From: Phenylobacterium sp. RIFCSPHIGHO2_01_FULL_69_31
GTDB taxonomy: Bacteria; Pseudomonadota; Alphaproteobacteria; Caulobacterales; Caulobacteraceae
NCBI RefSeq assembly: GCF_001824475.1
Contig: NZ_MHXN01000032.1
Coordinates: 113,259 to 177,258 of the forward strand
DNA: 64,000 nt
Direction: 5' to 3'
Shown here: one piece after another, positions 40,650 through 56,606 of the stretch
Layout: the number at the start of each line of letters is the position of its first letter
Numbering within the stretch: the stretch's first letter is position 1
Program-made: the position numbers and the translations under genes
Notes under the pieces: model-generated
The model's input: the letters and a program-made list of their open reading frames with translations, nothing else
What the model was told of the DNA's origin: nothing
Database searches by the model: none

Positions 40650-40665
40650 ATGCTACCGGTGTCAT
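40650..40665. promoter_or_regulatory. LacI-type operator (pectin regulon site 1)
   Basis: ATGCTACCGGTGTCAT, ends 1 nt before the esterase ATG, between divergent genes. Confidence 0.75.
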
Positions 40666-40666
40666 T

Positions 40667-41629
40667 ATGGATTTGGACCGCCGAACGCTCCTCGCCCTCG
40701 CCTCCACGGCCGCCGCCACGCCGGCGCTGGCCCAGGCCGCCGATCCCACGGAGACCCTCAAGCTCTGGCCCGGTAGACCGCCCGGCGCGCTGGCCGCCCT
40801 GCCCCGCGAGGTCATCACCGACCGCACGCCCACCTCGGGGTTCCGGGACCGCTACGTCACCGGCATCGGCGAGCCCCTGCTGACCGTCTTCCGGCCGGCC
40901 CGGCCCAACGGCGCGGCCTGCGTGATCGCACCCGGCGGCGGCTACATCCGGGTGGTGATCGACAAGGAGGGGTTCGAGATCGCCCGGCGCCTCGCGGAGT
41001 CTGGGGTGACCAGCTTCGTGCTGCGCTACCGGCTGCCGGCCGAGGGGTGGGCCAGCCCCTCCGACACCCCGCTCCAGGACGCCCAGCGCGCCGTCCGCCT
41101 GGTCCGCGCCGCCGCGCCGCGCTACGGGGTCGACCCGGCCCGCGTCGCCTTCCTGGGCTGTTCGGCGGGCGGCCATCTGGCGGCCAGCCTGGCCACGGGC
41201 TACGGCCGCGCGGTCTATGCCTTGGTCGACGAAGCCGACCGCCTGTCGGCGCGGCCGGACCTGTCGGCCCTGCTCTATCCCGTGATCGACATGTCCCTGC
41301 CTCACGCCCACGGCGGATCGCGGACCGCGCTCCTGGGCGCCGCACCGTCGCCACAGGCGGAGGCGGCCTACTCGCCTCACCGCCAGGTCACCGCCGGGAC
41401 CCCGCCGACCTTCCTCATCCATGCGGCGGACGACGCTTCGGTGCCGGTGGAGAACAGCCTGAACTACCTGTCGGCCCTGCACGCGGCCAAGGTCCCGGCC
41501 GAGGCGCACATCTTCGAGGAAGGCGGCCACGGGTTCGGGATCTATCTGGCGCGTGGCAAGCCCGCCCATGGCTGGCCCGACCTGTTCCTGGCCTGGGCCG
41601 CGCGGCGGGGGTGGCTCAAGACGGCCTGA
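40667..41629 (+). CDS. Tat-type exported alpha/beta hydrolase (acetyl esterase-like, candidate carbohydrate esterase)
   Basis: MDLDRRTLLALASTAAATPALAQA leader; VIAPGGGYIRVV, FLGCSAGGHLAASLAT, DDASVPVENSLNY, EGGHGFG. Confidence 0.88.
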   Translation: MDLDRRTLLALASTAAATPALAQAADPTETLKLWPGRPPGALAALPREVITDRTPTSGFRDRYVTGIGEPLLTVFRPARPNGAACVIAPGGGYIRVVIDKEGFEIARRLAESGVTSFVLRYRLPAEGWASPSDTPLQDAQRAVRLVRAAAPRYGVDPARVAFLGCSAGGHLAASLATGYGRAVYALVDEADRLSARPDLSALLYPVIDMSLPHAHGGSRTALLGAAPSPQAEAAYSPHRQVTAGTPPTFLIHAADDASVPVENSLNYLSALHAAKVPAEAHIFEEGGHGFGIYLARGKPAHGWPDLFLAWAARRGWLKTA

Positions 41630-41639
41630 GTCCGGGCCG

Positions 41640-43262
41640 TCAGCGCGCCTGGTCCAGATAGTCGATCAGGGTGGTCATGTTCTGGATGTAGGTCCCGGTG
41701 GAGATCCCCAGGACCGGCTTGTCCGTCGGGTACGGCGAGGTGTCGGTCGCGTCGCCCACGTGGGTGGTCGAATAGTCCCCGTCGGCCTTCGCCGGCGGCG
41801 CGGCGCCGGTGTAGGGATTGCTCGTGGCGACCAGGGGCGTCGGCCAATAGCCCTCCGCGTTCAGCCCGGCGATCAGCTTGCCGGCCGCCTCGCCGCCGAC
41901 CGCCTTGGTCCCGCCCTGCGCGCGGACGTTCAGGTCATAGGTCTCCAAATCGCGCGTGGCGAAGTACTTGGGCAGGGGCACGAGGCCCTTGGCCATCAAT
42001 GGCGAGTCCCGGGTCACGTCCTCGGGGCGCGTCCGCTTCAGGCGCTCGTAGCGGGCGCGCAGGCCGGCGACGTCAATCTTCCGCCAGGCGCCGTAGTGGG
42101 CCAGGGTCTTCTGATCGCTGTAGTCCCAGTAGTACTCGCCGTTGGCGACGTTCGAGCCGCGGCGGTGGACGTAGATCGGCCGGTCCGTGCCGATCTCGAT
42201 GTAGGTGGGATGGGTCCGGCCGTCCGGCCGCGGCTTGGCCAGCTTCACCTTGTCCAGCCAGTCCAGAGCCTCGGGCACGCGGGCCAGGAACTTGGTGTCG
42301 CCGGTCAGTTCGTAGAAGCTCATCAGCTGGCTGACGTTGTTCGCCGTGGTGTGGGTGGCCAGCGCCGTCGGCTCGTAGGTGCGCGCGCCCACGGGCTTGA
42401 GGTCCGGGACGGTGTACTGCAGGCCCCAGCCCGGCTGGGGCTGACCCTGCTGGGTGACGATGAAGCTGTTCATCGCCCGGGTCACGGCGTCCATCGCGCG
42501 CGCGTCCCCCAGCGCGTGGTGGACCATGACCAGGAACTTGATGTTCTCGCCGGCCACGTCGTCGTTGAAGGTGATGAAGCTGGTGTAGTCCGGCTTTCCG
42601 TGGTGGCTGAACTCGTTCTTTAGCGGATAGCGCTGCGGCCAGCCGCCGATCGGGTACTGGCTCTCCAGCACGAAGTTGACCGCCTTCTCGAGGGCCGGAC
42701 GCCACTTCGGATCGCGCTTCTCGACGTACAGCCGCAGCAGGAACTGCATGGCCTCGGACGTGCCGGCGTCGTCGAAGGTGGCGTTGCCCCAGTAGTGCTG
42801 GAATTCCTCCATCCGCCAGGCGTTGCGGCCATAGGTGGCGTACCAGTCCTTCATCGAGGCCTCGCCGCCGAAGTCGATCATGTAGTGCCAGCCGCCGCTG
42901 GGGTGCTGGCCCCAGATCAGCGCCTCGGCGGCTTTCTCCGCCGCGCGGTAGTAATAGTCGTCGCCGGTGGCGTGATAGGCGTCGAGGAACAGGTGGCCCA
43001 TGGTCGCCGTCCCGGGCGGCTGCACCCAGATCATGGTGGGCTTGGCCTCCAGCTCGCCCCACCGGCGCTTCATGTCGGGCGTGTAGGACCAGACGTAGCC
43101 GCCGTTGTAGGCGACTTTCTCGACCATGAAGGTGGTGGCCGTCTTCATGGCGGCCAGCGCCTGATCGCGGCTGGGGGCCGGCGTCGGGGACTGGGCGAAC
43201 GCGGCGCCCGAAAGAACCAAGGCCAAAGCGCCGACGAGCCCGGCCAATACGCCCCGAACCAT
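41640..43262 (-). CDS. Secreted pectate lyase, PL10-like with N-terminal extension
   Basis: Signal peptide MVRGVLAGLVGALALVLSGAAFAQS; SQYPIGGWPQRYPL, FITFNDDVAGENIKFL, ARTYEPTALATHTTANNVSQLMSF resemble Pec_lyase (PL10) motifs. Confidence 0.82.
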   Translation of the reverse strand: MVRGVLAGLVGALALVLSGAAFAQSPTPAPSRDQALAAMKTATTFMVEKVAYNGGYVWSYTPDMKRRWGELEAKPTMIWVQPPGTATMGHLFLDAYHATGDDYYYRAAEKAAEALIWGQHPSGGWHYMIDFGGEASMKDWYATYGRNAWRMEEFQHYWGNATFDDAGTSEAMQFLLRLYVEKRDPKWRPALEKAVNFVLESQYPIGGWPQRYPLKNEFSHHGKPDYTSFITFNDDVAGENIKFLVMVHHALGDARAMDAVTRAMNSFIVTQQGQPQPGWGLQYTVPDLKPVGARTYEPTALATHTTANNVSQLMSFYELTGDTKFLARVPEALDWLDKVKLAKPRPDGRTHPTYIEIGTDRPIYVHRRGSNVANGEYYWDYSDQKTLAHYGAWRKIDVAGLRARYERLKRTRPEDVTRDSPLMAKGLVPLPKYFATRDLETYDLNVRAQGGTKAVGGEAAGKLIAGLNAEGYWPTPLVATSNPYTGAAPPAKADGDYSTTHVGDATDTSPYPTDKPVLGISTGTYIQNMTTLIDYLDQAR

Positions 43263-43300
43263 GCCTGTTTCCTCTCTCGTTGAAACGGATGTAGCGCGGA

Positions 43301-43316
43301 TTGCTACCGGTGTCAT
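43301..43316. promoter_or_regulatory. LacI-type operator (pectin regulon site 2)
   Basis: TTGCTACCGGTGTCAT between divergent pectate lyase and carboxylesterase genes. Confidence 0.75.
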
Positions 43317-43348
43317 AGTGCTCAAAACACGCAAACAGGGCGGATTCC

Positions 43349-44923
43349 ATGGTTGGTGAGCTTACCCGGCGCGGCGCGGTCGTGGCCGGTCTCGGTGTGG
43401 CGGCGATGGCGCTGAGCCCCCGCGCCGCGCAGGCGCAGCCCTCGCCCGTAGCCACGACCCGGCATGGCCCCGTGAGAGGTTATGTGGACGACGGCGTCAT
43501 CGGCTTTCGCGGCATCCGCTACGGCGCCGACACGGGCCCCCGCCGCTTCCAGCCTCCTGTCGCCCCCGCGCCCTGGACCGAGGTCGCGAACGCTACCGCC
43601 TATGGCCCCGCCTCGCCCCAGCGGGGACGCGTCGGCGAGCCGGTCAGCGAAGACTGCCTGTTCCTAAACGTCTGGACCCCCGCCCTGCGCGACGGCGGCC
43701 GGCGACCGGTGATGGTCTATCTGCATGGCGGCGCCTATTCGAGCGGCTCGGGCTCGTCGCCGCTCTACGACGGGGTCCGTCTGTGCCGGCGCGGCGACGT
43801 GGTGGTGGTGACCGTGAACCACCGCCTGAACGCCTTCGGCTACGCCTATCTCGCCCGCCTGGTCCCCGAGCTTGCCGACAGCGGCAACGCCGGCCAGCTC
43901 GACCTGATCCTGGCGCTGCGGTGGGTCCGCGACAACATCGCCGAGTTCGGCGGCGACCCGGGCAAGGTGATGGTCTTCGGCCAATCCGGCGGCGGGGCCA
44001 AGATCGCCACCATGATGGCCACCCCCACGGCGGCCGGCCTCTTCCACCGCGCCGCCACCATGAGCGGCCAGCAGGTCACCGCCTCGGGTCCCGGCAACGC
44101 GACCCGGCGCACATTGGCCTATCTGGACGCGCTGAAGCTGAAGCCCGAGGCGGCCGGCGCCCTGCGAACCCTGCCCGTCGAGCGCCTAGTCGAGGCGCTG
44201 GCCGCCGAGGATCCCGTCCTCGGCTTTGGCGGCCTGTACTTCGGGCCCGTGCTGGACGAGCGCTCCCTGAAGCGCCACCCGTTCTATCCCGACGCCCCGG
44301 CCCAGTCGGCGAAGATCCCGATGATCATCGGCAACACGCATGACGAGACCCGCGCCTTCCTGGGAGGCGATCCGCGGAACTTCTCGGTGACCTGGGATGA
44401 ACTGCCCGGACGGCTGACCCAGGAGACGATGCGGATCGACATCCTGCCGGAGCCGGTGATCGCCGAATATCGGCGGCTCTACCCGACCTACAACCCCTCC
44501 GATGTCCTGTTCAGCGCCACCACCGCCGCCCGATCCTGGCGCGCGGCGATCATCGAGGCGGAGGAGCGCGCCAGGGCCGGCACGCCCGCCTTCGTCTACC
44601 AGTTCGACTTCCCCGCCGCCGGCGAACGACTGCGGGCGCCCCACGCCAGCGACATCCAGATGGTGTTCGACAACCTCGCCAAGCCCGGCGCCTCGGCCAA
44701 GGGCCAACAGGCGCAGGCGATGGCCGACCAGATGAGCGAGGCCTTCCTGGCCTTCGCCCGCAGCGGGGATCCCAACTGCCGGGCCATCCCGCGGTGGGCG
44801 CGCTACGACCTGAAGCGGCGGCAGACGATGGTGTTCGACACGCCGTCGAAGCTGGTCGACGACCCGCGCGGCGCCGAGCGGCGGCTGTTCGAGAAGGTCC
44901 CGTTCGTCCAGGCGGGGACCTGA
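43349..44923 (+). CDS. Tat-type exported type-B carboxylesterase
   Basis: MVGELTRRGAVVAGLGVAAMALSPRAAQAQ leader; SEDCLFLNVWTP, VMVYLHGGAYSSGSG, VMVFGQSGGGAKIATMM. Confidence 0.92.
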   Translation: MVGELTRRGAVVAGLGVAAMALSPRAAQAQPSPVATTRHGPVRGYVDDGVIGFRGIRYGADTGPRRFQPPVAPAPWTEVANATAYGPASPQRGRVGEPVSEDCLFLNVWTPALRDGGRRPVMVYLHGGAYSSGSGSSPLYDGVRLCRRGDVVVVTVNHRLNAFGYAYLARLVPELADSGNAGQLDLILALRWVRDNIAEFGGDPGKVMVFGQSGGGAKIATMMATPTAAGLFHRAATMSGQQVTASGPGNATRRTLAYLDALKLKPEAAGALRTLPVERLVEALAAEDPVLGFGGLYFGPVLDERSLKRHPFYPDAPAQSAKIPMIIGNTHDETRAFLGGDPRNFSVTWDELPGRLTQETMRIDILPEPVIAEYRRLYPTYNPSDVLFSATTAARSWRAAIIEAEERARAGTPAFVYQFDFPAAGERLRAPHASDIQMVFDNLAKPGASAKGQQAQAMADQMSEAFLAFARSGDPNCRAIPRWARYDLKRRQTMVFDTPSKLVDDPRGAERRLFEKVPFVQAGT

Positions 44924-44927
44924 GGCC

Positions 44928-46001
44928 TCAGCGGATGACCGCGGCGCCGGTGGCGCCGATCGCCGCCTCGATCTCGCGCACGTCGACCATCGAGGCGTCG
45001 CCCGGCGTCGTCATCGCCAGCGCCCCGTGCGCCGCGCCGTAGTCGACCGCCGCCTGGGCGCCCTTGCCCTGCAGCAGCGCATAGGCCACGCCCGAGGCGA
45101 AGGCGTCGCCGCCGCCCACCCGGTCGAACACATCGAGGTTCGCGCGCGTCTCCGAGCTCACCACCGTCCCGTCCATCCACAGGACCGCGCCCCAGTCGTT
45201 GGCGCTGGCCGACTGGGCGGTGCGCCGGGTGCTGGCCACGACCTTGAAACCGAACTCGCCGGCCACCGCCTCGGCGAAGGCCGGGAAGTCGGTCGGCGCG
45301 TCGTAGCCGAGGCAGGCCTTGAAGCCGGCCGGGTCGCCGAACATCACGTCCACCTGGGCGGCGATCTCCCGGTTCAGGGCCTGGACCGCGGCCGGGTCGC
45401 CCAGCGCCTTCCAAAGCGAGGCGCGATAGTTGAGGTCGTAGGACACCACCGTCCCGTGACGGCGGGCGGACCGGACCGCCTCAAGCACGACCTGCGGCGT
45501 CTGGGGCGCCAGGGCGGCGAAGATGCCCCCCGTGTGGAACCAGCGAACGCCCTCGGCCCCGAACAGGCCGTCCCAGTCCACCTCGCCCGGCGCGATCTGG
45601 GAGGCCGCGGAGTAGCCCCGGTCCGAGACGCCTAGCGCCGGGCGCAGGCCAAAGCCGCGTTCCGTGAAATTGAACCCGACCCGGGTGTTGCGGCCGACGC
45701 CGTCGTACGCACGCCAGATGACGTGGCTGACGTCGACGCCGCCCTGCAGGATCAAGTCCTCGGCCAGGCGCCCGACGTCATTGTCCGGAAAGGCGGTGAC
45801 CACGGTCGCCCGCAGGCCGAACGCCTTGCGCATGGCGCGGGCCACGTTGTACTCGCCGCCGCCTTCCCAGACCTGGAAGCTGCGCGCATTGCGCACGCGC
45901 CCCTCGCCCGGGTCGAACCGCAGCATGACCTCGCCGAGGGCCGCGCAGTCCCAGCGGCAGTCCGCCGCCGGCCGGATCGTCAGCCCCCCGCCCGCCATCA
46001 C
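44928..46001 (-). CDS. kdgK: 2-keto-3-deoxygluconate kinase (PfkB family)
   Basis: ALGEVMLRFDPGEGRVRNARSFQVWEGGGEYNVARAMRKAFGL; VFDRVGGGDAFASGVAYALL PfkB motif. Confidence 0.93.
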   Translation of the reverse strand: MMAGGGLTIRPAADCRWDCAALGEVMLRFDPGEGRVRNARSFQVWEGGGEYNVARAMRKAFGLRATVVTAFPDNDVGRLAEDLILQGGVDVSHVIWRAYDGVGRNTRVGFNFTERGFGLRPALGVSDRGYSAASQIAPGEVDWDGLFGAEGVRWFHTGGIFAALAPQTPQVVLEAVRSARRHGTVVSYDLNYRASLWKALGDPAAVQALNREIAAQVDVMFGDPAGFKACLGYDAPTDFPAFAEAVAGEFGFKVVASTRRTAQSASANDWGAVLWMDGTVVSSETRANLDVFDRVGGGDAFASGVAYALLQGKGAQAAVDYGAAHGALAMTTPGDASMVDVREIEAAIGATGAAVIR

Positions 46002-46669
46002 TTGCCCCGGATCGTCTTGATGAGTTGCACCGTGTCGCGGACCCGGGCCTCGATGCCCGCATAATCGCCGGCGTCCAGCAGCGCCTTGGTGATCAGGTTC
46101 GAGCCCATGCCGCAGGCGACGATGCCGGCGTCGAACCAGGGCCTCAGCGAGGCCTCAGCCACGTCGACGCCGCCGGTGGGCATGATCTTGGTCCAGGGCA
46201 TGGGGCCCAGCACCGCCTTCACGAACTCCGGCCCGCCCACCGAGCCGCCGGGGAAGACCTTCACGATCTCGCAGCCCAGTTCCTGGGCCTGGCCGATCTC
46301 GCTGGCCGTGCCGCAGCCCGGCGAATAGGGGATCATGCGTCGGTTGCAGACCTTGGCCACGTCGGGGTTCAGCAGCGGCCCCACCACGAAGTTCGCGCCA
46401 TTGGCGATGTAGATCCCCGCCGTCGGCGCATCCACCACCGAGCCCACGCCCATGATCACGCTGGGGTCGGCCTTGGCGAAGTGGCGCGTCACATCGAGGA
46501 AGACCTGGCTGGCGAAATCGCCGCGGTTGGTGAACTCGATGCACTTGGCCCCGCCGTTGGCGCAGGCCTGGATCACCCGCACGCAGACCTCGGGGTCCGG
46601 GTGGTAGAAGACCGGGATCACCCCCTGGTCCATCATGGCGTTCAGCACGGCGAGGCGATCGCGGGCCAT
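45998..46669 (-). CDS. eda: 2-dehydro-3-deoxy-phosphogluconate (KDPG) aldolase
   Basis: GVIPVFYHPDPEVCVRVIQACANGGAKCIEFTNRGD; MPWTKIMPTGGVD; ATGA overlap with kdgK. Confidence 0.92.
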   Translation of the reverse strand: MARDRLAVLNAMMDQGVIPVFYHPDPEVCVRVIQACANGGAKCIEFTNRGDFASQVFLDVTRHFAKADPSVIMGVGSVVDAPTAGIYIANGANFVVGPLLNPDVAKVCNRRMIPYSPGCGTASEIGQAQELGCEIVKVFPGGSVGGPEFVKAVLGPMPWTKIMPTGGVDVAEASLRPWFDAGIVACGMGSNLITKALLDAGDYAGIEARVRDTVQLIKTIRGK

Positions 46670-46700
46670 TGGGCGGTCCTTCCCTACGCTTGGAGCCGGC

Positions 46701-47462
46701 TCAGCGGGCCAGCCAGCCGCCGTCCACGGGGACGATGGCGCCGTGCATGTAATCCGCTGCGCGGCTCGCGAGGAAGACCGCCGCGCCGGCGAGGTCGGCC
46801 GGTTGCCCCCAGCGCCCGGCCGGAATCCGGTCCAGGATCTGCTGGTTGCGGGTCTCGTCGGCCTGCAGGGCCGCGGTGTTGTTGGTGGCGAAATAGCCGG
46901 GGGCCAGGCCGTTGACGTTGATCCCCTTGGCCGCCCACTCGTTGCAGAGGGTCTTGGTGACGCCCGCCAGCCCGCTCTTGGCGGCCGTGTACGAGGGCAC
47001 CCGCATTCCGCCCTGGAAGCTGAGCATCGAGACGACATTGATGATCTTGCCGCCGCGGCCGTCGGCCACCCAGCGCCGGGCCACCGCCTGGCTCAGGAAG
47101 AAGACGGTCTTGAGGTTGGTGTCGATCACCGCATCCCAGTCCTCTTCCGTAAAGTCGAGGCTGTCGGCCCGCCGGATGATGCCGGCGTTGTTGACCAGGA
47201 TGTCCAGGCGGCCGGCCGCGGCATAGGCCTCGAACACGACCCGGCCGATCGGCTCGGTGGTGGACAGGTCAGCGCCCACCGCGTGCAGCTTGCGCCCCGC
47301 CTGGGCCACCAGTTCGGCCGTCTCGTCGGGCGCGCTGCGGCCCACGGCCACGATGTCGGCCCCCGCCTGCGCCATGCCGACGGCGATCGCCTGGCCGAGG
47401 CCCGTGTTGGCGCCGGTGACCAGCGCCACCTGCCCCGTGAGATCGAAGGGGTTCGCGCTCAT
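46701..47462 (-). CDS. kduD: 2-dehydro-3-deoxy-D-gluconate 5-dehydrogenase (KduD), SDR
   Basis: [72 protein letters not shown]. Confidence 0.92.
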
Positions 47463-48295
47463 TTCAGCTGGCAGATGTCGAGGACGTTCATGTCGGTGTA
47501 GTCGAGGTTCTCCCCGCCCATGGCCCAGATGAAGGCATAGTTCGAGGTGCCCGAGCCCATATGGATCGACCACGGCGGCGACATCACTGCCTCCTCGTTG
47601 GCCATCACGATGTGGCGCGCATTGTCCGGCTCGCCCATGAAATGGAAGACCCGGTCGTTCTCGCCGAGGCCAAAGTAGAAATAGATCTCGCTACGGCGGT
47701 CGTGCAGGTGCGGCGGCATGGTGTTCCACACGCTGCCGGTGTTGAGGATCGTCAGGCCCAGCAAGAGCTGCGCCGACTTGCAGGTCTGCGGCACCACCAG
47801 CTGGTAGATCGTCCGCTCGTTCGAGGTCTCGAGCGCGCCGCGCTCCAGCGGGACGGCGTCGGCCAGGGCCAGCTTCTTGGTCTCGAACGCCGCGTGGGCC
47901 GGGGTGGAGACGATGTAGAAGCGCGCCCCTTCACCTTCGAAGGTCACGTTCTTGGCGCCCATGGTCACGTACAGGCAGTCCTTTGGCGCCAGGGGATAGG
48001 CCGTCCCGTCCACCGTCACCGTGCCGGCCACGTCCGAGACATTGATCACGCCCATCTCGCGGCGTTCCAGGAACGGATGGCCCTTGGCGCTCTCAGGCTC
48101 GGTCTGATCGGGCAGCCTGAGGGCGCCCGCACCCGGGGCCGCGCCGCCGATCACGAAGCGCTCGTAGTGGGTATAGTTCAGCACCACCTCGCCGGCGACG
48201 AACAGGTCCTGGACCAGGTAGCGCTGACGCAGGGTCTCGTTGTCGACGCCCTCCATCATGTCCGGATGGGTGGCGTGATAGATGCGTTTGAACAC
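47459..48295 (-). CDS. kduI: 5-dehydro-4-deoxy-D-glucuronate isomerase
   Basis: [56 protein letters not shown] start at 48295 gives the usual ~278 aa. Confidence 0.95.
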
Positions 48296-48308
48296 TTGCG
48301 CTCTCCCG

Positions 48309-49757
48309 TCAGACCAGCTCGGGCGTGCGTTCCGCCGCCGGCTCGTCGAGTTTGTAAGCCCGCTTGGGCAGGTTGTAGGCCAGGTCGACGATGGTCTCGG
48401 CCGCATCGTCCTCGTCCAGGCGGTGTTCGGCCACCAGCTTCGCCAGGAAGCTCGCATCCACCCGCCGGGCCACGTCGTGGCGTGCGGGGATCGACAGGAA
48501 CGCCCGGGTGTCGTCGTTGAAGCCGACCGTGTTGTAGAAGCCCGCCGTCTCGGTGGTCTGCTCGCGGAACCGGCGCATGCCCTCCGGGCTGTCGTGGAAC
48601 CACCAGGCGGGGCCCAGCTTCAGCACCGGATAGTGGCCGGCCAGCGGGGCCAGCTCTCGCGCATAGACGCTCTCGTCCAGGGTGAAGACGATGATCGACA
48701 GCCGCGGGTCGTTGCCGAACCGGTCGAGCAGCGGCTTCAGCGCGCGGACGTAGTCCGTCCGCGTCGGGATGTCGGCGCCCTTGTCGCGGCCGAAGGCGCC
48801 GTGGAGCCCGCGGTTGTGGTTGCGGAAGCTGCCGGGGTGGATCTGCATGACCAGCCCGTCGTCCAGGCTCATCTTCGCCATCTCGGTCAGCATCTGGGCG
48901 CGGAACAGCTCAGCCTCGGCCGGCGTGAACGTCCCGCCGAGGACCTTGCGGAACAGGGCCTCGGCCTCGGCTTCCGAGAGGTCGGCGGTCTGGGCCGTGG
49001 GATGGCCGTGGTCGGTTGAGGTGGCGCCCATCTCCATGAACGCCTGCCGGCGGACCCGATGGGCCGCCAGGTAGCCCCTCCAGGACTGCACATCCTCCCC
49101 GCTGATCTCGCCGAAGCGCTGGATCTCTGCGGTGAAGTCCTCGTGCTCGGGGTCCAGCACGGGATCGGGGCGATAGGCGGTGACCACCCGCCCCTTCCAG
49201 CCCGAGGCGCGCATGGCCTTGTGGTGCTTCAGGGGATCGGTCGGCGCCTCGGTGGTCGCCAGGAGCTCGATGTTGAACCGCTCGAACAGCCCCCGCGGCC
49301 GGAAGGCCGGCGTGGCCAGCGCCTCGCCGATGCGGTCGAAATAGAGGTCGGCGGTCTCGGCGCTCAGGCGCACGTCGAACCCGAACACCTCGGCGAACAC
49401 GTGGTCGAGCCACATGGACGAGGGCGTGCCGCGGAACAGGTGCATGTTGGCCGCCAGGATCCGCCAAGCCGCGCGCGGATCGGCGCCGCTGGGCCCCTTG
49501 CGCGACGGCACGCCCAGGTCCTCGAGCGCGACGCCCTGCGAATAGAGCATCCGGTAGAGGTAGTGGTCGGGCGCCAGCAGCAGTTCGGTGGCGTTGGCGA
49601 ACGGCGCATCGCCCGCAAACCACTCAGGATCGGTATGGCCGTGCGGGCTGATGATCGGCAGGTCCTTGACCTGCGCATAGAGGGGCTGCGCCACGGCCCG
49701 GGTGGCGGGCTCGGCAGGGAACAGCCGGTCCGGGTTCAGCGTCAGGGGCCTTGTCAT
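48309..49757 (-). CDS. uxaC: Glucuronate/galacturonate isomerase
   Basis: [55 protein letters not shown]. Confidence 0.95.
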
Positions 49758-49782
49758 CGGCCGTTCCTCCCTATTGGCGCGT

Positions 49783-49798
49783 AGGTAACCGGTGTCAT
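49783..49798. promoter_or_regulatory. LacI-type operator (pectin regulon site 3)
   Basis: AGGTAACCGGTGTCAT (reverse complement ATGACACCGGTTACCT) upstream of uxaC. Confidence 0.8.
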
Positions 49799-49872
49799 TC
49801 TGCCGCGCAAGCCAATTGCGCCCGCCGTATCCGACTACCGCGTCCTGTGCCGATTGTCTTCTCCGGACCAAA

Positions 49873-49888
49873 TTGACACCGGTTACCT
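49873..49888. promoter_or_regulatory. LacI-type operator (pectin regulon site 4)
   Basis: TTGACACCGGTTACCT upstream of the hydratase-exuT pair. Confidence 0.8.
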
Positions 49889-49991
49889 CTTCGCACAATG
49901 TGCAGCCGACCCGGCCAGGGAGTCCTGGCCCAAGGAAGAGAACAGCGCCGCTAAGTCCTTCGAGACGGACCGGCCGGAGGATAAGAAGCAA

Positions 49992-50861
49992 GTGACCGTT
50001 CCGGCGGCGAAGGCCGCGACCGCGTTTGACCCGCCGGCCGTCGCGCGCCAGTTCGTTGACGCGCGCCTCGGCGCGCGCGCGCTGCCCGACTTCCCCGGCC
50101 CGCTGCCCACGGACATGGACGCCGGCTACCAGGTCCAGGAACAGGCTATCGGCCTGTGGCCAGACCAGGTCGCAGGCTGGAAGGTCGGCCGCATTCCGCT
50201 GGAGCTGCAGGCGGAGCTCAACGCCCAACGGGTCATGGGCCCGGTGTTCGCGCGCAACGTCTGGCAGGCCGACGCCGCCAACCCCACGCCCCTGCCCGTC
50301 ATCCCGGGCGGCTTCGCGGCGGTGGAGGCCGAGTACATCTATCGCATGGGGCGCGACGCGCCGGCCGACAAGCTGGAGTGGACGCCGCAGGAGGCGCTGG
50401 ACTACGTCGGCGACCTCCTTGTCGGGGTGGAATTCGCCGGCAGCCCGCTCGCCACCATCAACGTCCTGGGGCCTCGGATCGTCGCCTCCGATTTCGGCAA
50501 CAACGCCGGCCTGATCCTGGGCCGCGCCGTGCCCGGGTGGCGCGAGCGCCCCGACCTGATCCCGCCCTGCCACGCCTATGTCGAAGGGCAGCTCGTCGGC
50601 GAAGGTTCGCCCGAGTCCATCCCTGGCGGCCCGCCGGGCTCGCTGGCCTTCCTGCTGGCCGCCTGCGCCGCCCGCGGCCGCCCGCTGAAAGCCGGCCAGC
50701 TGGTGACGACCGGCGCGGCGAGCGGCATTCATGACATCGAGGTCGGACAAACGGCCCGCATCACCTTCGGCGACCTGAACGAGATCCGCTGCTTCGCGGT
50801 TCCCGCCGTTCCGACCGAAGGTCCTGGAGGAGAGACCCATGACCACCGCCGCGCGGACTGA
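49992..50861 (+). CDS. 2-keto-4-pentenoate hydratase / FAH-superfamily protein
   Basis: YQVQEQAIGLWPDQVAGWKVGRI, PGGFAAVEAEYIYRMG, LVTTGAASGIHDIEVGQTARITFGDL; GTG at 49992 preferred because the longer ORF would include operator site 4. Confidence 0.8.
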   Translation: MTVPAAKAATAFDPPAVARQFVDARLGARALPDFPGPLPTDMDAGYQVQEQAIGLWPDQVAGWKVGRIPLELQAELNAQRVMGPVFARNVWQADAANPTPLPVIPGGFAAVEAEYIYRMGRDAPADKLEWTPQEALDYVGDLLVGVEFAGSPLATINVLGPRIVASDFGNNAGLILGRAVPGWRERPDLIPPCHAYVEGQLVGEGSPESIPGGPPGSLAFLLAACAARGRPLKAGQLVTTGAASGIHDIEVGQTARITFGDLNEIRCFAVPAVPTEGPGGETHDHRRAD

Positions 50862-52116
50862 CGCTCCCCCCGCCGCCATGGGCCGCTACCGCTGGGTGGT
50901 CGTCGCCCTGCTCTTCATGGCGATGGTCATCAACTACGTCGACCGCCAGACGATCGGCCTCCTGAAGGCCGACCTGACCGCCGAGTTCGGCTGGAGCGAG
51001 ACGGACTACGCGGACCTCGTCCTCTACTTCCAGGCCGCCTACGCGGTGGCCTACCTCGCCTGGGGCGGGATCATGGACCGCATCGGGGCCCGGTGGGGCT
51101 TCGGCATCGCGTTCCTCATCTGGCAGATCGGCCACATGGCCACGGCCGGCGCCCGCGGCTTCGGCGGCTTCATCGCCAGCCGCGTTATCCTGGGCCTCGG
51201 CGAGGCCGGCGCCTTCCCGGCCGGGATCAAGGCGGTGGCCGAGTGGTTCCCCAAGAAGGAACGCGCCTTCGCCACAGGCCTCTTCAACGCCGGCACCAAC
51301 ATCGGCGCGATCGTCACCCCCCTCCTGATCCCAGGCCTCACCCTGGCGTTCGGCTGGCAGATGACGTTCATCGTTACGGGGCTGCTCGGACTGATCTGGC
51401 TGCCGATCTGGCTCCTGGTCTATCGCCGGCCCCGTGAGCACAAGAAGGTCTCGGCGGCGGAACTGGCCCACATCGAGAGCGACCCGCCGGATCCGGTGGA
51501 GAAGGTGAAGTGGACCCGCCTGCTCGGCTACCGCGAGACCTGGGCCTACGCGATCGGCAAGTTCCTGATCGACCCGATCTGGTGGATGTTCCTGTTCTGG
51601 CTGCCGGACTTCCTCGGCAAGCGCCACGGTCTGGACCTGAAGACCTTCGGTCCGCCCCTGGTGGCCATCTACCTGCTGTCCGACGTGGGCAGCGTGGGTG
51701 GCGGCTGGCTGTCGTCGCGGTTCATGAAGATGGGCTGGTCGATCAACCGGGCCCGCAAGACCACCATGCTAATCTGCGCCCTGCTGGCCGTTCCGGTCGC
51801 AGGCGCCGCCATGGCCTCCAACCTGTGGGTCGCGGTGTTGATCATCGGGGTGGCGACGGCGGCCCACCAGGGCTTCTCGGCCAACCTCTACACCCTGCCC
51901 AGCGACGTCTTCCCCCGTTCGGCGGTGGGTTCGGTCATTGGCATCGGCGGCATGGTCGGCGCCGTCGGCGGCATGGCGATGTCGAAGTACGCCGGCTACG
52001 TCCTGGAGCAGATCGGCAGCTATACGCCCATCTTCATCCTGGCCGCCTCGGCCTATCTGCTGGCGCTGCTGGTGGTGCACCTGCTGACGCCCAAGATGGA
52101 GCCGGTGAAGCTCTGA
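50839..52116 (+). CDS. exuT: MFS transporter, hexuronate (ExuT)-like
   Basis: MVINYVDRQTIGLLKADLTAEFGWSETDYADLVLYFQAAYAVAYL; GEAGAFPAGIKAVAEWFPKKERAFATGLFNAGTNIGAI. Confidence 0.93.
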   Translation: MTTAARTDAPPAAMGRYRWVVVALLFMAMVINYVDRQTIGLLKADLTAEFGWSETDYADLVLYFQAAYAVAYLAWGGIMDRIGARWGFGIAFLIWQIGHMATAGARGFGGFIASRVILGLGEAGAFPAGIKAVAEWFPKKERAFATGLFNAGTNIGAIVTPLLIPGLTLAFGWQMTFIVTGLLGLIWLPIWLLVYRRPREHKKVSAAELAHIESDPPDPVEKVKWTRLLGYRETWAYAIGKFLIDPIWWMFLFWLPDFLGKRHGLDLKTFGPPLVAIYLLSDVGSVGGGWLSSRFMKMGWSINRARKTTMLICALLAVPVAGAAMASNLWVAVLIIGVATAAHQGFSANLYTLPSDVFPRSAVGSVIGIGGMVGAVGGMAMSKYAGYVLEQIGSYTPIFILAASAYLLALLVVHLLTPKMEPVKL

Positions 52117-52124
52117 GGCGCGGC

Positions 52125-53177
52125 TCAGTCGTTCGGCGGGGCTCCGGTGGAGTCCCGCACAACCAGGGACGGCAGGCGGCTCTTGGGATCGCGTCCATCG
52201 TCGTCGCGGCCCATCAGCCGCTCCACGGCCAGACGGCCGATCTCGCGGGTCGGGGTGCGGACAGTGGTCAGCGTCGGCCATAGCCGCGAGGCGATCTGGA
52301 AGTCGTCGAAGCCGATGACCGAGACATCCTCCGGCACCCGCAGTCCCGCCTGGCGCGCCGCCTGCAGGACGCCGGCGGCCATCTCGTCGTTACCGGCGAA
52401 GATCGCCGTCGGGCGGGGCGACATGGCCAGCAGTTCGCGGCCGCGCTCGATCCCGGACTCGTAGGTATAGGCGCCCTCCACCGCGTAGGCCTTCGCCAGG
52501 TGAAGGCCCCGCTCCTCGAGCGCCTCTTCGAAGCCGGAGCGCCGCTCGTGCGACGAGCGGAAGGTCGGGGGGCCCGAGACGAAGGCGATGCGCGTATGGC
52601 CCAGCTCGGCCAGGTGCGCCGCCGCCTCGCGACCGCCCAGCCGGTCGCGGGTCTCGATCATGTGTTCCGGCCGGTCCAAGCTGACCGAGGCCACGCGGAC
52701 ATAGGCGCAGCCGATCTCGGCCATCAGGGCCGCGGCCCGTTCGTCCTCGGAGACCGACGGGGTCAGCACCACGCCGAACAGCCGCTGCCGTTCCACGAAG
52801 CTGCGCAGGTCGTCCAGAAACGTTGGGCTCGCGCGATCGCAGGGATGGACCACCAGTTCGAACCCCGAGCCCTTCATGCCGTCGAGCAGGCCGAGCTGCA
52901 TGTTCACGACGTATTGCGGGTTGGGGTTGTCGTAGACTAGGCCGATCAGGAAGGCGCGGCCATAGGCCAAGCCCCGGGCCTGGGGATCCGGCGCATAGCC
53001 CAGCTCCGCGATAACCGCCTCGATCCGCTCGCGGGTGTCGGCGCGCACGAAGGGCGAGGCGTTGATGACCCGCGAGACCGTCTTCTTCGAAACCCCGGCA
53101 AGGCGCGCGATGTCGTTGATGGTCGGCCGGCGGCGCGACTCCACGCCCCCGTCCTCAGGCGCGCGCGGTTTGCTCAT
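52125..53177 (-). CDS. LacI family transcriptional regulator
   Basis: PTINDIARLAGVSKKTVSRVINASPFVRADTRERIEAVIAELGYAPDPQAR HTH; periplasmic-binding-like sensor domain. Confidence 0.96.
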   Translation of the reverse strand: MSKPRAPEDGGVESRRRPTINDIARLAGVSKKTVSRVINASPFVRADTRERIEAVIAELGYAPDPQARGLAYGRAFLIGLVYDNPNPQYVVNMQLGLLDGMKGSGFELVVHPCDRASPTFLDDLRSFVERQRLFGVVLTPSVSEDERAAALMAEIGCAYVRVASVSLDRPEHMIETRDRLGGREAAAHLAELGHTRIAFVSGPPTFRSSHERRSGFEEALEERGLHLAKAYAVEGAYTYESGIERGRELLAMSPRPTAIFAGNDEMAAGVLQAARQAGLRVPEDVSVIGFDDFQIASRLWPTLTTVRTPTREIGRLAVERLMGRDDDGRDPKSRLPSLVVRDSTGAPPND

Positions 53178-53286
53178 AGGAGGCTTCACGGGCAGTCGGA
53201 CCGATCCTTCGAACGCGCAGCGCGCTATCCATATTCCCTGGCCTGCGCCGGGCCGCAACTGCAAGCCGGCCAAGCTTGAGATTTGG

Positions 53287-53302
53287 ATGACACCGGTTAC
53301 CA
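53287..53302. promoter_or_regulatory. LacI-type operator (pectin regulon site 5)
   Basis: ATGACACCGGTTACCA, 7 nt upstream of uxaA ATG (53310), between divergent lacI and uxaA. Confidence 0.8.
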
Positions 53303-53309
53303 TCGCGCG

Positions 53310-54794
53310 ATGAGCGACCTTTCCGCAACCCTCGTGATCGATCCGCGGGACGACGTGGCGGTCGCCCTGCGTCCGGTCGCGGCTGGGGATCGGGTCGCGG
53401 ACGGCGTCGTCGCTGCGCGAGACATCCCGGCCGGACACAAGGTGGCGCTGCGGGCGATCGCCGCCGGCGAGCCGGTGCGCAAGTTCGGCTGGCCCATCGG
53501 CCGGGCGACCCAGGCCATCGCGCCGGGAGCCCACGTCCATAGCCACAACCTGGCCACGGCGCTTGCGGGCGTGGAGACCTATGCCTACGAGCCGGCCCCC
53601 GCCGAGACGCTGCCGCCCCCCTCGCCCGCCACCTTTCAGGGCTATCGCCGCGCGGACGGCCGGGTGGGCGTCCGCAACGAGATCTGGGTGCTGTGCACGG
53701 TGGGCTGCGTGGCGCGGACGGCGCAGAAGATCGCGGAGGCCGCCGACCGCCGGTTCCGCGGCAGGGTCGACGGCGTGCACGCCCTCACCCACCCGCTCGG
53801 CTGCTCCCAGCTCGGCGGCGACCTCGACGCCACCCGCACGATGATCGCAGCCCTGGCGGGGCATCCCAACGCCGGCGGCGTGCTGATCCTGGGCCTCGGC
53901 TGCGAGAGCAACCAGCTGCAGGCGCTGCTCGACGCCGCCCCCGACCTGGACCGCTCCCGCCTGCGCGCCTTCACGGCCCAGTCGGCCGGCGACGAGATCG
54001 AGGAAGGCCTGGCGGCCGTCGGGGAACTGGTGGCGGTCGCCGAGCACGACCGGCGCGAGCCCTGCCCCGTCTCGGACCTCGTCCTCGGGGTGAAGTGCGG
54101 CGGGTCCGACGGCTTCTCCGGACTGACCGCCAATCCCCTTGTCGGGCGCATCGCCGACCAGGTGTGCGGCTCGGGCGGAACCACGATCCTCACCGAGATC
54201 CCCGAGATCTTCGGCGCCGAACGCCTGCTGATGGCCCGCGCCACCGACCGCGAGGTGTTCGAGGACGTCGCCGCCGTGGTCAACGACTTCAAGGGCTACT
54301 TCCTGAGCCATGGCGAACCGGTCAGCGAGAACCCCTCCCCCGGCAACATCGAGGGCGGCATCACCACCCTCGAGGAGAAGTCACTGGGCGCCGTGCAGAA
54401 GGGCGGCCGTGGTCCGGTGACCGAGGTCGTGCGCTATGGGGGCCAGGCGCACGCGCGGGGCGTCGTGCTGTTGGAAGCGCCGGGCAACGACGCCGTTTCA
54501 TCCACTGCGCTGACGGCCGCCGGAGCCACGGTGATCCTGTTCACCACCGGCCGCGGCACGCCGCTGGGCTTCCCGGCTCCCACGCTCAAGATCGCCACCA
54601 ATTCGGGCCTGGCCCAGCGCAAGCCGCGCTGGATCGACTTCGACGCCGGCCGCATCGTCGCCGGCGAGAGCGTCGAGGCCGCCGCCGACCGGCTGATGGA
54701 CCTCGTCCTGGCCACGGCCTCCGGGCAACCGACGCGCGCCGAAGAGAACGGGGAGCGCGAGATCGCCCTCTGGAAGCGCGGCGTCACCCTCTAG
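53310..54794 (+). CDS. uxaA: Altronate dehydratase (UxaA family)
   Basis: SAF-like N-terminus (DIPAGHKVALRAIAAGEPVRKFGWPIGRAT), YRRADGRVGVRNEIWVLCTVGC, LGVKCGGSDGFSGLTANPLVG, NPSPGNIEGGITTLEEKSLGAVQKGG. Confidence 0.95.
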   Translation: MSDLSATLVIDPRDDVAVALRPVAAGDRVADGVVAARDIPAGHKVALRAIAAGEPVRKFGWPIGRATQAIAPGAHVHSHNLATALAGVETYAYEPAPAETLPPPSPATFQGYRRADGRVGVRNEIWVLCTVGCVARTAQKIAEAADRRFRGRVDGVHALTHPLGCSQLGGDLDATRTMIAALAGHPNAGGVLILGLGCESNQLQALLDAAPDLDRSRLRAFTAQSAGDEIEEGLAAVGELVAVAEHDRREPCPVSDLVLGVKCGGSDGFSGLTANPLVGRIADQVCGSGGTTILTEIPEIFGAERLLMARATDREVFEDVAAVVNDFKGYFLSHGEPVSENPSPGNIEGGITTLEEKSLGAVQKGGRGPVTEVVRYGGQAHARGVVLLEAPGNDAVSSTALTAAGATVILFTTGRGTPLGFPAPTLKIATNSGLAQRKPRWIDFDAGRIVAGESVEAAADRLMDLVLATASGQPTRAEENGEREIALWKRGVTL

Positions 54795-56219
54795 ATGCGT
54801 CTCTCGAACCTCACCCTCGCGCAGGTCCGCGCGCCCGTCCGGACCCCCGCCTATGACCGGACGGCCACCCGTGTTGGCGTCGTCCACTTCGGCCCCGGCG
54901 CGTTCCACCGCGCGCACCAGGCCTGGTACTTCGACCGGATGCTGGCCTGGCAGCCGGACCTGGCCATCTGCGCCGTATCCCTGCGCAGCCCGGATGTCCG
55001 GGACGCCCTCGCCCCGCAGAACGGCCTCTACGCCCTGGCGGAGAAGGAAGCCGACCCGGCCGTGCAGGTCATCGGCTCCATCGCGGAGGTGCTGGTGGCG
55101 CCGGAGGATCCGGAGGCCGTGTTCGCCCGGCTCGACCAAGCGCGCTACGTGACCTCGACCGTGACCGAGAAGGGCTACTGCCTGACGACCGGCGGCGAGT
55201 TGGACCTCGGTCACCCCGACATCCGCCGCGACCTCGAAACGCCCGGTCGGCCCGTGAGTCTCGTGGGCTGGATCACCGAGGCGCTGCGTCGCTGCAAAGC
55301 CGCCGGCCGGCCGCCGTTCACGACGATCAGCTGCGACAACCTCTCGGACAACGGCCTGAAGCTGCGGCGCGGCGTGATCCGCTTCGCCGAAGCGCGCGGC
55401 GAGGTCGACCTGGCGGCGTGGATCGAGGCCAAGGCCGCCTTTCCGTGCAGCATGGTCGATTCGATCACCCCGGCGACCGACGACGCCCTGCGCGAGCAGG
55501 TCGCGGCCGCGCTCGGCCTCACGGACGCCTGGCCGGTCCAGCGCGAGCGCTTCGTCCAATGGGTCGTGGAAGACAGCCTGGGCGCCGACGCTGCCCTGTT
55601 CGCGCGCGCCGGGGTCACTGTCGCCCGCGCCGTCGCGCCCTTCGAGCGGGCGAAGCTGCGCCTGCTGAACGGCGCCCACTCCACCCTGGCCTACGCCGGG
55701 CTGGACCTCGGCCACGAGACGGTGTCCGGCGCCATGGGCGACCCGCGTCTGGCCAGCTTCGTCGAACGGATGATGCGCCAGGACGTGGCGCCCAGCCTCG
55801 ACGCTCCGGAACTCGATGTCCCCGCCTATGTCGGCGAGGTGCTGACCCGATTCCGCAACCCCGCCATCGTCCACAGGCTGTCCCAGATCGCCTGGGACGG
55901 TTCCCAGAAGCTGCGCTTCCGCCTGCTGGAAACGGCTTCGGAAGCCCTGGCGGCCGGCCGTCCGGTGGACCGCTTGGCGGTGGGCGTCGCCGCCTGGATG
56001 CGCTTCGTGGTCCGCCAGCATCGCGCCGGCGCCGCCCTGGTCGACCCTCTGGCCGACACCCTGGCGGCGGTCGCTGCATCCTGCGATGGCTCGGACGCGG
56101 ACGTGGACCGCTTCCTGGCGCTGGAGAGCGTCTTTCCGCCGGCGCTCGTCGGGCAACACCCGTTCCGCAGCGCCGCGGCCCACGCCTACGCCGACCTGGA
56201 AGCCGCGCTCAAGCTCTAG
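54795..56219 (+). CDS. uxuB: Mannitol-dehydrogenase family protein, fructuronate reductase (UxuB)-like
   Basis: VGVVHFGPGAFHRAHQAWYFDRML; VTEKGYCL; CDNLSDNG; KLRLLNGAHSTLAYAG. Confidence 0.9.
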   Translation: MRLSNLTLAQVRAPVRTPAYDRTATRVGVVHFGPGAFHRAHQAWYFDRMLAWQPDLAICAVSLRSPDVRDALAPQNGLYALAEKEADPAVQVIGSIAEVLVAPEDPEAVFARLDQARYVTSTVTEKGYCLTTGGELDLGHPDIRRDLETPGRPVSLVGWITEALRRCKAAGRPPFTTISCDNLSDNGLKLRRGVIRFAEARGEVDLAAWIEAKAAFPCSMVDSITPATDDALREQVAAALGLTDAWPVQRERFVQWVVEDSLGADAALFARAGVTVARAVAPFERAKLRLLNGAHSTLAYAGLDLGHETVSGAMGDPRLASFVERMMRQDVAPSLDAPELDVPAYVGEVLTRFRNPAIVHRLSQIAWDGSQKLRFRLLETASEALAAGRPVDRLAVGVAAWMRFVVRQHRAGAALVDPLADTLAAVAASCDGSDADVDRFLALESVFPPALVGQHPFRSAAAHAYADLEAALKL

Positions 56220-56506
56220 GCGGCGCGTTTCAGCGCGCCCAGCCGCTCGGCGATCCGGCAGACCAGCGCGTCGGCCGAAACTCCCAGACTGTCGGCGATG
56301 CGGCAGAACTCCAGCAGGTCGACACGGCGCTGGCCCCGCTCGATCATCGCCACGTGCGACCCCGTCTTGCCCAGGCGCGCGGCCAGGGCGCGCTGGCTCA
56401 GCCCCGCCTCTCGGCGGGCGCCGATCAGTACGGCGCGCACGACCTCGTACTCGTCGGAGAACACGGGGTTCGGGCGTCTGGGCGTCCGGGCAAGTGACGC
56501 CGTCAT
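56216..56506 (-). CDS. Small XRE-family HTH regulator
   Basis: LIGARREAGLSQRALAARLGKTGSHVAMIERGQRRVDLLEFCRIADSLGV; ATG at 56506 chosen because the upstream ATG (56536) would place operator site 6 inside the CDS. Confidence 0.88.
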   Translation of the reverse strand: MTASLARTPRRPNPVFSDEYEVVRAVLIGARREAGLSQRALAARLGKTGSHVAMIERGQRRVDLLEFCRIADSLGVSADALVCRIAERLGALKRAA

Positions 56507-56510
56507 GATG

Positions 56511-56526
56511 TTGACACCGGTGTCAG
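56511..56526. promoter_or_regulatory. LacI-type operator (pectin regulon site 6)
   Basis: TTGACACCGGTGTCAG, immediately upstream of the XRE gene. Confidence 0.8.
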
Positions 56527-56590
56527 CCAAAGGCATGTTCCCTCCACGCCTGGATTGGTTCCAAATCGGAGCGCATGATTCCAGGCTAAT

Positions 56591-56606
56591 ATGACACCGG
56601 TGTCAT
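56591..56606. promoter_or_regulatory. LacI-type operator (pectin regulon site 7, perfect palindrome)
   Basis: ATGACACCGGTGTCAT, ~80 bp upstream of the TonB receptor gene. Confidence 0.85.

Follow-up and report, generated by a model that had tools for sequence, protein, structure and literature searches.

A predicted LacI-family regulon for pectin and galacturonate use with two function-sorted kinds of operator half-site in Phenylobacterium and its relatives

The LacI-family hexuronate regulators ExuR, KdgR, UxaR and UxuR are encoded beside galacturonate and glucuronate genes and have even palindromic motifs with a central CG and a probable autoregulation (PMC4052901). All of these features return in the Phenylobacterium locus described here. 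Nonetheless, the motifs of the known regulators are palindromic, whereas mixing is obligatory in the catabolic operators of our locus, which are also polar and sorted by gene function. The half-site degeneracy reported in a LacI recognition-code study (PMC2978694) also fits the locus, given that two half-site species per recognition helix, and mixtures of them, are foreseen; however, both orientations of a mixture are equivalent in that scheme, whereas a single orientation is used here and the palindrome of the second species is missing. With E. coli lac O1 and further asymmetric operators found in nature the locus shares unequal halves that overlap a promoter, although an inserted base is part of the asymmetry in lac O1 (PMC2978694) and ours is a two-position letter change at even spacing. 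In the same bacterial family the Caulobacter GluR regulon (PMC4052901) is likewise a LacI-family regulon, but it has a 20-bp consensus, concerns central carbon genes and belongs to a different regulator. We conclude that the kind of system is known, and that the strict operator grammar and its polarity appear to be new.

The window (the whole stretch of 64,000 nucleotides that was analysed) contains the genes and operators listed in Table 1. The original prediction had read seven 16-mers as a single operator family, and this reading is borne out: all seven are found at their coordinates (in the reading used there, on the minus strand at 40650, 43301 and 49783 and on the plus strand at 49873, 53287, 56511 and 56591), and the 10-mer TGACACCGGT has 9 exact matches in the window against 0.08 expected, with the two palindromes counted twice. 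A genome-wide motif scan, which had been proposed along with the prediction and was carried out by pattern search like all genome-wide motif counts given here, returned 14 matches at 11 sites in the 4.88-Mb genome (2 for a reversed-pattern control), and 7 of these sites lie in the 16 kb of the locus. With one mismatch tolerated, TGACACCGGTTWCC occurs three times in the genome, every time within the locus. Given these counts, chance can be ruled out for the clustering. The palindrome TGACACCGGTGTCA at the TonB receptor and the XRE gene is even with a central CG, and the mixed sites retain its ACCGGT core.

Table 1. Genes, operators and predicted promoter elements of the locus (window coordinates).
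Feature	Position	Strand	Remark
Operator ATGACACCGGTAGCAT, type 1/type 1 variant	40650..40665	-	Directly upstream of esterase gene at 40667
Secreted esterase gene	40667..41629	+	Nearest model pectin acetylesterase PaeX, score below model cut-off
Pectic acid lyase	41640..43262	-	Pfam PF09492
Operator ATGACACCGGTAGCAA	43301..43316	-	Common to divergent pectic acid lyase (minus) and carboxylesterase (plus)
Carboxylesterase type B	43349..44923	+	Pfam PF00135
Catabolic operon	44928..49727	-	Sugar kinase 44928-46001, KDPG aldolase to 46669, kduD 46701-47459, kduI 47459-48289, uxaC 48309-49727
Predicted -10 (TACCTA) for uxaC	49782..49787	-	Within TTACC half-site; 17-bp spacer from conserved TTG
Mixed operator ATGACACCGGTTACCT	49783..49798	-	uxaC-kduI-kduD-kdgA-kdgK operon; gene-proximal half TTACC
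Predicted -35 (TTGCGC) for uxaC	49805..49810	-	12 bp upstream of operator
Mixed operator TTGACACCGGTTACCT	49873..49888	+	Upstream of hydratase-like/MFS transporter operon
Hydratase-like protein (49935-50834) and MFS hexuronate-type transporter	49935..52116	+	
LacI-family repressor gene, proposed regulator	52125..53177	-	Recognition helix VSKKTVSRVI
Mixed operator ATGACACCGGTTACCA	53287..53302	+	Between lacI and uxaA, facing uxaA; 117 bp upstream of lacI
Predicted -10 (TACCAT) for uxaA	53298..53303	+	A start at the ATG of 53310 would be leaderless
Altronate/galactarate dehydratase-type uxaA and mannitol-dehydrogenase-family uxaB	53310..56219	+	
Small XRE-type HTH protein	56216..56506	-	Pfam HTH_3
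Palindromic operator TTGACACCGGTGTCAG	56511..56526	.	XRE/TonB-receptor intergenic region
Palindromic operator ATGACACCGGTGTCAT	56591..56606	.	Centre 86 bp upstream of TonB-receptor start used; 80 bp from 56511 palindrome
TonB-dependent receptor	56688..59519	+	TonB-Xanth-Caul subfamily

The hydratase-like protein has no match in Pfam or NCBIfam, and its label FAH is our own reading of the sequence alone; in several relatives, too, its gene adjoins the transporter gene. The XRE gene, divergent from the TonB receptor, is found near such a locus in just two other loci. The palindromes had been placed at these two genes, and both do lie in the region between them, but since the genes use one divergent intergenic region neither palindrome can be assigned to one of them. 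In one relative (L012) the XRE gene stands apart from the receptor and each retains its own palindromes.

Outside the window, a GH43 glycosidase gene at a great distance from the locus is preceded by a palindrome (L094, G000:C28:127216-137216, site 5000) and is a probable extra member of the regulon. TTGACACCGGTATCAA is found 21 bp ahead of a gene for a small secreted-looking protein (L095, G000:C31:116284-126284, site 5000); this protein has no Pfam match and a ParA-like ATPase gene is nearby. Further matches are located on C11 and C34, and a near-match on C33 was set aside as an operator because it sits within a coding frame.

The adjacent LacI gene is well supported as the predicted regulator of the operator family, as the original prediction had proposed. 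By Pfam its product combines a LacI HTH (PF00356) with a periplasmic-binding-type sensor (Peripla_BP_3, PF13377); no NCBIfam LacI-family model scores above its cut-off for this protein. The closest relatives, mostly from Phenylobacterium, are 86-94% identical, and among the relatives encoded in the 80 loci that we collected the recognition helix is kept in nearly all. The operators are situated upstream of neighbouring pathway genes and co-occur with the regulator across genomes: among 60 Caulobacteraceae genomes, the 23 with a LacI ortholog (about 50% identity or more) have 5-20 motif matches, against 0-3 in the 37 without (6 in one genome; p=4e-11), and genomes of the same genus that lack the ortholog have few or no matches. 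That another co-inherited factor would be the regulator is very improbable. Its case is that binding by LacI is a prediction and that the exceptional genome (G042) combines 6 matches with a LacI relative just 35% identical; against it, the genome profile and the gene adjacency both point to LacI, and an even palindrome with a central CG is typical of this family (PMC4052901). The genome encodes four LacI-family proteins. A heterodimer with a paralog was considered and rejected, given that two of the three other headpieces were read (VSPMTVSR and VSTATVSR) and are unlike VSKKTVSR.

Counting from +1, the first base right of the operator centre, the second half of the operator comes in two kinds. 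Type 1 halves (RNCA: GTCA, ATCA, AGCA and GGCA) have A or G at +4 and A at +7, and in type 2 halves (TNCC) these positions hold T and C. The two positions are coupled: in the 80 loci and the window, T at +4 goes with C at +7 in 142 of 144 sites and A or G at +4 with A at +7 in 117 of 133, whereas T with A, or A with C, was never seen there. Twelve held-out loci gave 26 T/C sites and no T/A site. Searches of 149 genomes found TGACACCGGTTNCC in 87 of them and TGACACCGGTTNCA at 10 sites (10 for a reversed control); TGACACCGGTRNCC is present in 44 of the 149, so that the coupling is strong, yet not absolute in that direction. Among the sites that match the core, 169 are mixed, 104 are type 1 pairs and none is a type 2 pair, and the type 2 palindrome GGTWACCGGTWACC was found once in the 149 genomes, against 12 for the control. 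The idea that such a palindrome serves a different regulator was dropped, as the palindrome is absent.

The choice between the two kinds follows gene function. Type 1 is found at all 61 sites of the TonB receptor (50/50), XRE (6/6), carboxylesterase (2/2), lyase (2/2) and esterase (1/1) genes, and type 2 at 127 of the 134 sites of catabolic and transporter operons, operators common to divergent genes being counted once under each gene. Just two loci supply the secreted-enzyme sites, which leaves that part of the sorting thin. Type 2 with one polarity holds for UxaC (54/54), KduI (10/10), KduD (4/4) and FAH (12/12), where in the divergent UxaC/FAH region sites of opposite orientation were credited to the other gene; UxaA has 47 type 2 sites and 7 of another form, all with identical polarity. 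In every assigned type 2 site TGACACC is gene-distal and the type 2 half gene-proximal. The sorting is conserved over about 20 LacI clusters, although orthologous sites share descent, so that the counts are not independent and clustering merely lessens the kinship.

The original prediction had sorted the variant halves into three functional classes. The sorting itself stands, and is conserved, but the classes shrink to two because AGCA, GGCA and ATCA swap among relatives at the TonB-receptor and lyase/esterase sites (in L013, for example, GGCAA occurs at the counterpart of the lyase/carboxylesterase operator at 43301), so that AGCA does not form a separate class. Polarity had been missed because all sites had been set in one orientation. 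Nor do both halves agree, as in strictly symmetric LacI operators: those of uxaC, uxaA and FAH are mixed in nearly all relatives.

An affinity hierarchy had also been proposed, in which one LacI dimer binds the palindromes tightest and the TACC and AGCA sites more weakly, resulting in a graded order of derepression. We regard this as unlikely, even though palindromes and operator pairs are found at the TonB receptor and single mixed sites at the catabolic genes, and weaker-binding mixed sites are foreseen by the recognition-code study (PMC2978694). A merely weakened half is expected to vary in sequence and orientation, whereas in the uxaC-class operators (68 sites in 17 clusters, drawn at 85% LacI identity) all 14 core positions reach 2.0 bits against 0.23 in the flanks: the TACC half is conserved to the same degree as the TGACACC half, without decay, and it is polar and tied to the spacing of a predicted promoter. 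As stated, the hierarchy is therefore not supported and leaves the invariant type 2 half unexplained, which looks like the product of specific selection; for the variable type 1 halves (AGCA, GGCA, ATCA) graded affinity is possible.

Alternatively, a single headpiece could bind in two modes, the lysine pair of VSKKTVSR reading either the purine at +4 (type 1) or the G opposite the C at +7 (type 2), so that both positions would change together. The coupling counts, including those of TGACACCGGTTNCC and TGACACCGGTTNCA, agree with this, and we hold it to be quite possible, if short of probable. It leaves the polarity without a reason, however, and if type 2 were a good half, type 2 palindromes would be expected, which the absence of type 2 pairs and the rarity of GGTWACCGGTWACC contradict. 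Two-mode reading is compatible with the promoter explanation given below and covers operators which that explanation leaves out. It is clearly improbable that a second DNA-binding protein recognises the type 2 halves of catabolic promoters, through an overlapping site or a heterodimer. Halves that are never self-paired and have a fixed polarity are what the site of a different protein should look like, but the genome has just four LacI-family genes, the two other headpieces that were read are unlike VSKKTVSR, XRE was found in just a few close relatives, and type 2 follows the genomes with a LacI ortholog.

Upstream of the uxaC-class sites one element stands out, a TTG 12 bp ahead of the site. 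A spacer of 16-18 bp between a TTG and the T at +4 is present in 15 of the 17 clusters (shuffles: mean 0.73, maximum 4.0); this rule was derived and first scored on the same loci, and the independent check is a held-out set from the same bacterial family, in which 10 of 11 sites have the TTG at precisely -12. Caulobacter RpoD promoters have TTG at -35 and GCTANAWC at -10 (PMC4287350, PMC8144410), and given the conserved TTG at fixed spacing, TACCW(A) is the likely -10 of the uxaC-class operons. The match of TACCW(A/T) to the RpoD -10 consensus is poor, and C at +7 is preferred by neither that consensus nor the type 1 half; it is likelier to be due to recognition by the repressor than to a -10 role. 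RpoN was also considered at uxaC, where an upstream CTTGC recalls its motif (PMC4287350), and rejected as no GG lies at a fixed distance.

At uxaA the TTG spacing fits in 4 of 11 clusters with TT halves and in none of 3 with GTC halves. Four uxaA LacI clusters have the ATG at one fixed offset, 12 bp past the T at +4, which would be compatible with a leaderless start; at several uxaA promoters the -10 is located elsewhere than in the type 2 half. The promoter geometry of the hydratase/transporter operator at 49873 is unlike that at uxaC: in this operon the type 2 half lies in the promoter spacer, with a TTG at -6 or a TTGACA inside the operator, and TTGAAA often precedes the operator. Type 2 thus persists without a -10 role, and a single promoter explanation for every type 2 site fails at the hydratase/transporter operon and at several uxaA promoters. 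A fused -10 would account for the uxaC class well, for uxaA partly and for FAH not at all.

At the TonB receptors, a TTG lies 35 bp (6 of 9 clusters) and a TA 11 bp (5 of 9) ahead of the distal operator, which places the receptor operators at or past the predicted start. The spacing of the receptor pair is 33-35 bp in 16 loci, 22 in 3, 80 in 2 and 100 in 3. In a Caulobacteraceae genus (g13), the loci L132-L137 have extra sites of the form TTGAAA-ATGACACCGGTTTCCT-ATA ahead of further genes, which suggests a larger regulon in that genus.

Taken together, in this Caulobacter-like bacterium of soil and water pectin use appears to be under one repressor, with a sugar acid as its presumed effector, that acts through two kinds of operator whose sorting is conserved across the family. 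We consider it probable that the local LacI-family protein governs a pectin/galacturonate regulon in which the type 2 half of the uxaC class also serves as the -10 box for RpoD. The dimer would read the strong half TGACACC, found at nearly every site, together with a second half of either kind. Type 1 halves would act at the genes for the TonB receptor, XRE and secreted enzymes; the two type 1 operators that lie, in relatives, at or just past the predicted receptor start may block initiation or early elongation. Type 2 halves would face the gene at catabolic and transporter promoters, and at the uxaC/kduI/kduD operons such a half would form the -10 box, with the -35 TTG 17 bp upstream. Repressor and polymerase would then compete for the same bases, and one sequence serving both may be the origin of the asymmetry and polarity of these operators. 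It might be argued more generally that two grammars with coupled positions separate uptake and secretion from never self-paired, gene-facing catabolism, and that polarity itself carries regulatory information (for instance by steering competition or cooperation between repressor and polymerase), but this we regard as doubtful.

LacI-family operator models usually assume symmetry and independent positions. In this regulon, a natural example with deep conservation, +4 varies together with +7, the operators keep one orientation and the kind of half follows gene function; the regulon would allow the needs of the repressor to be separated from those of RNA polymerase. It also warns that catabolic operators are missed or misread by symmetric motif models, and it provides a ready set of predictions for pectin regulation in Caulobacter-type bacteria.
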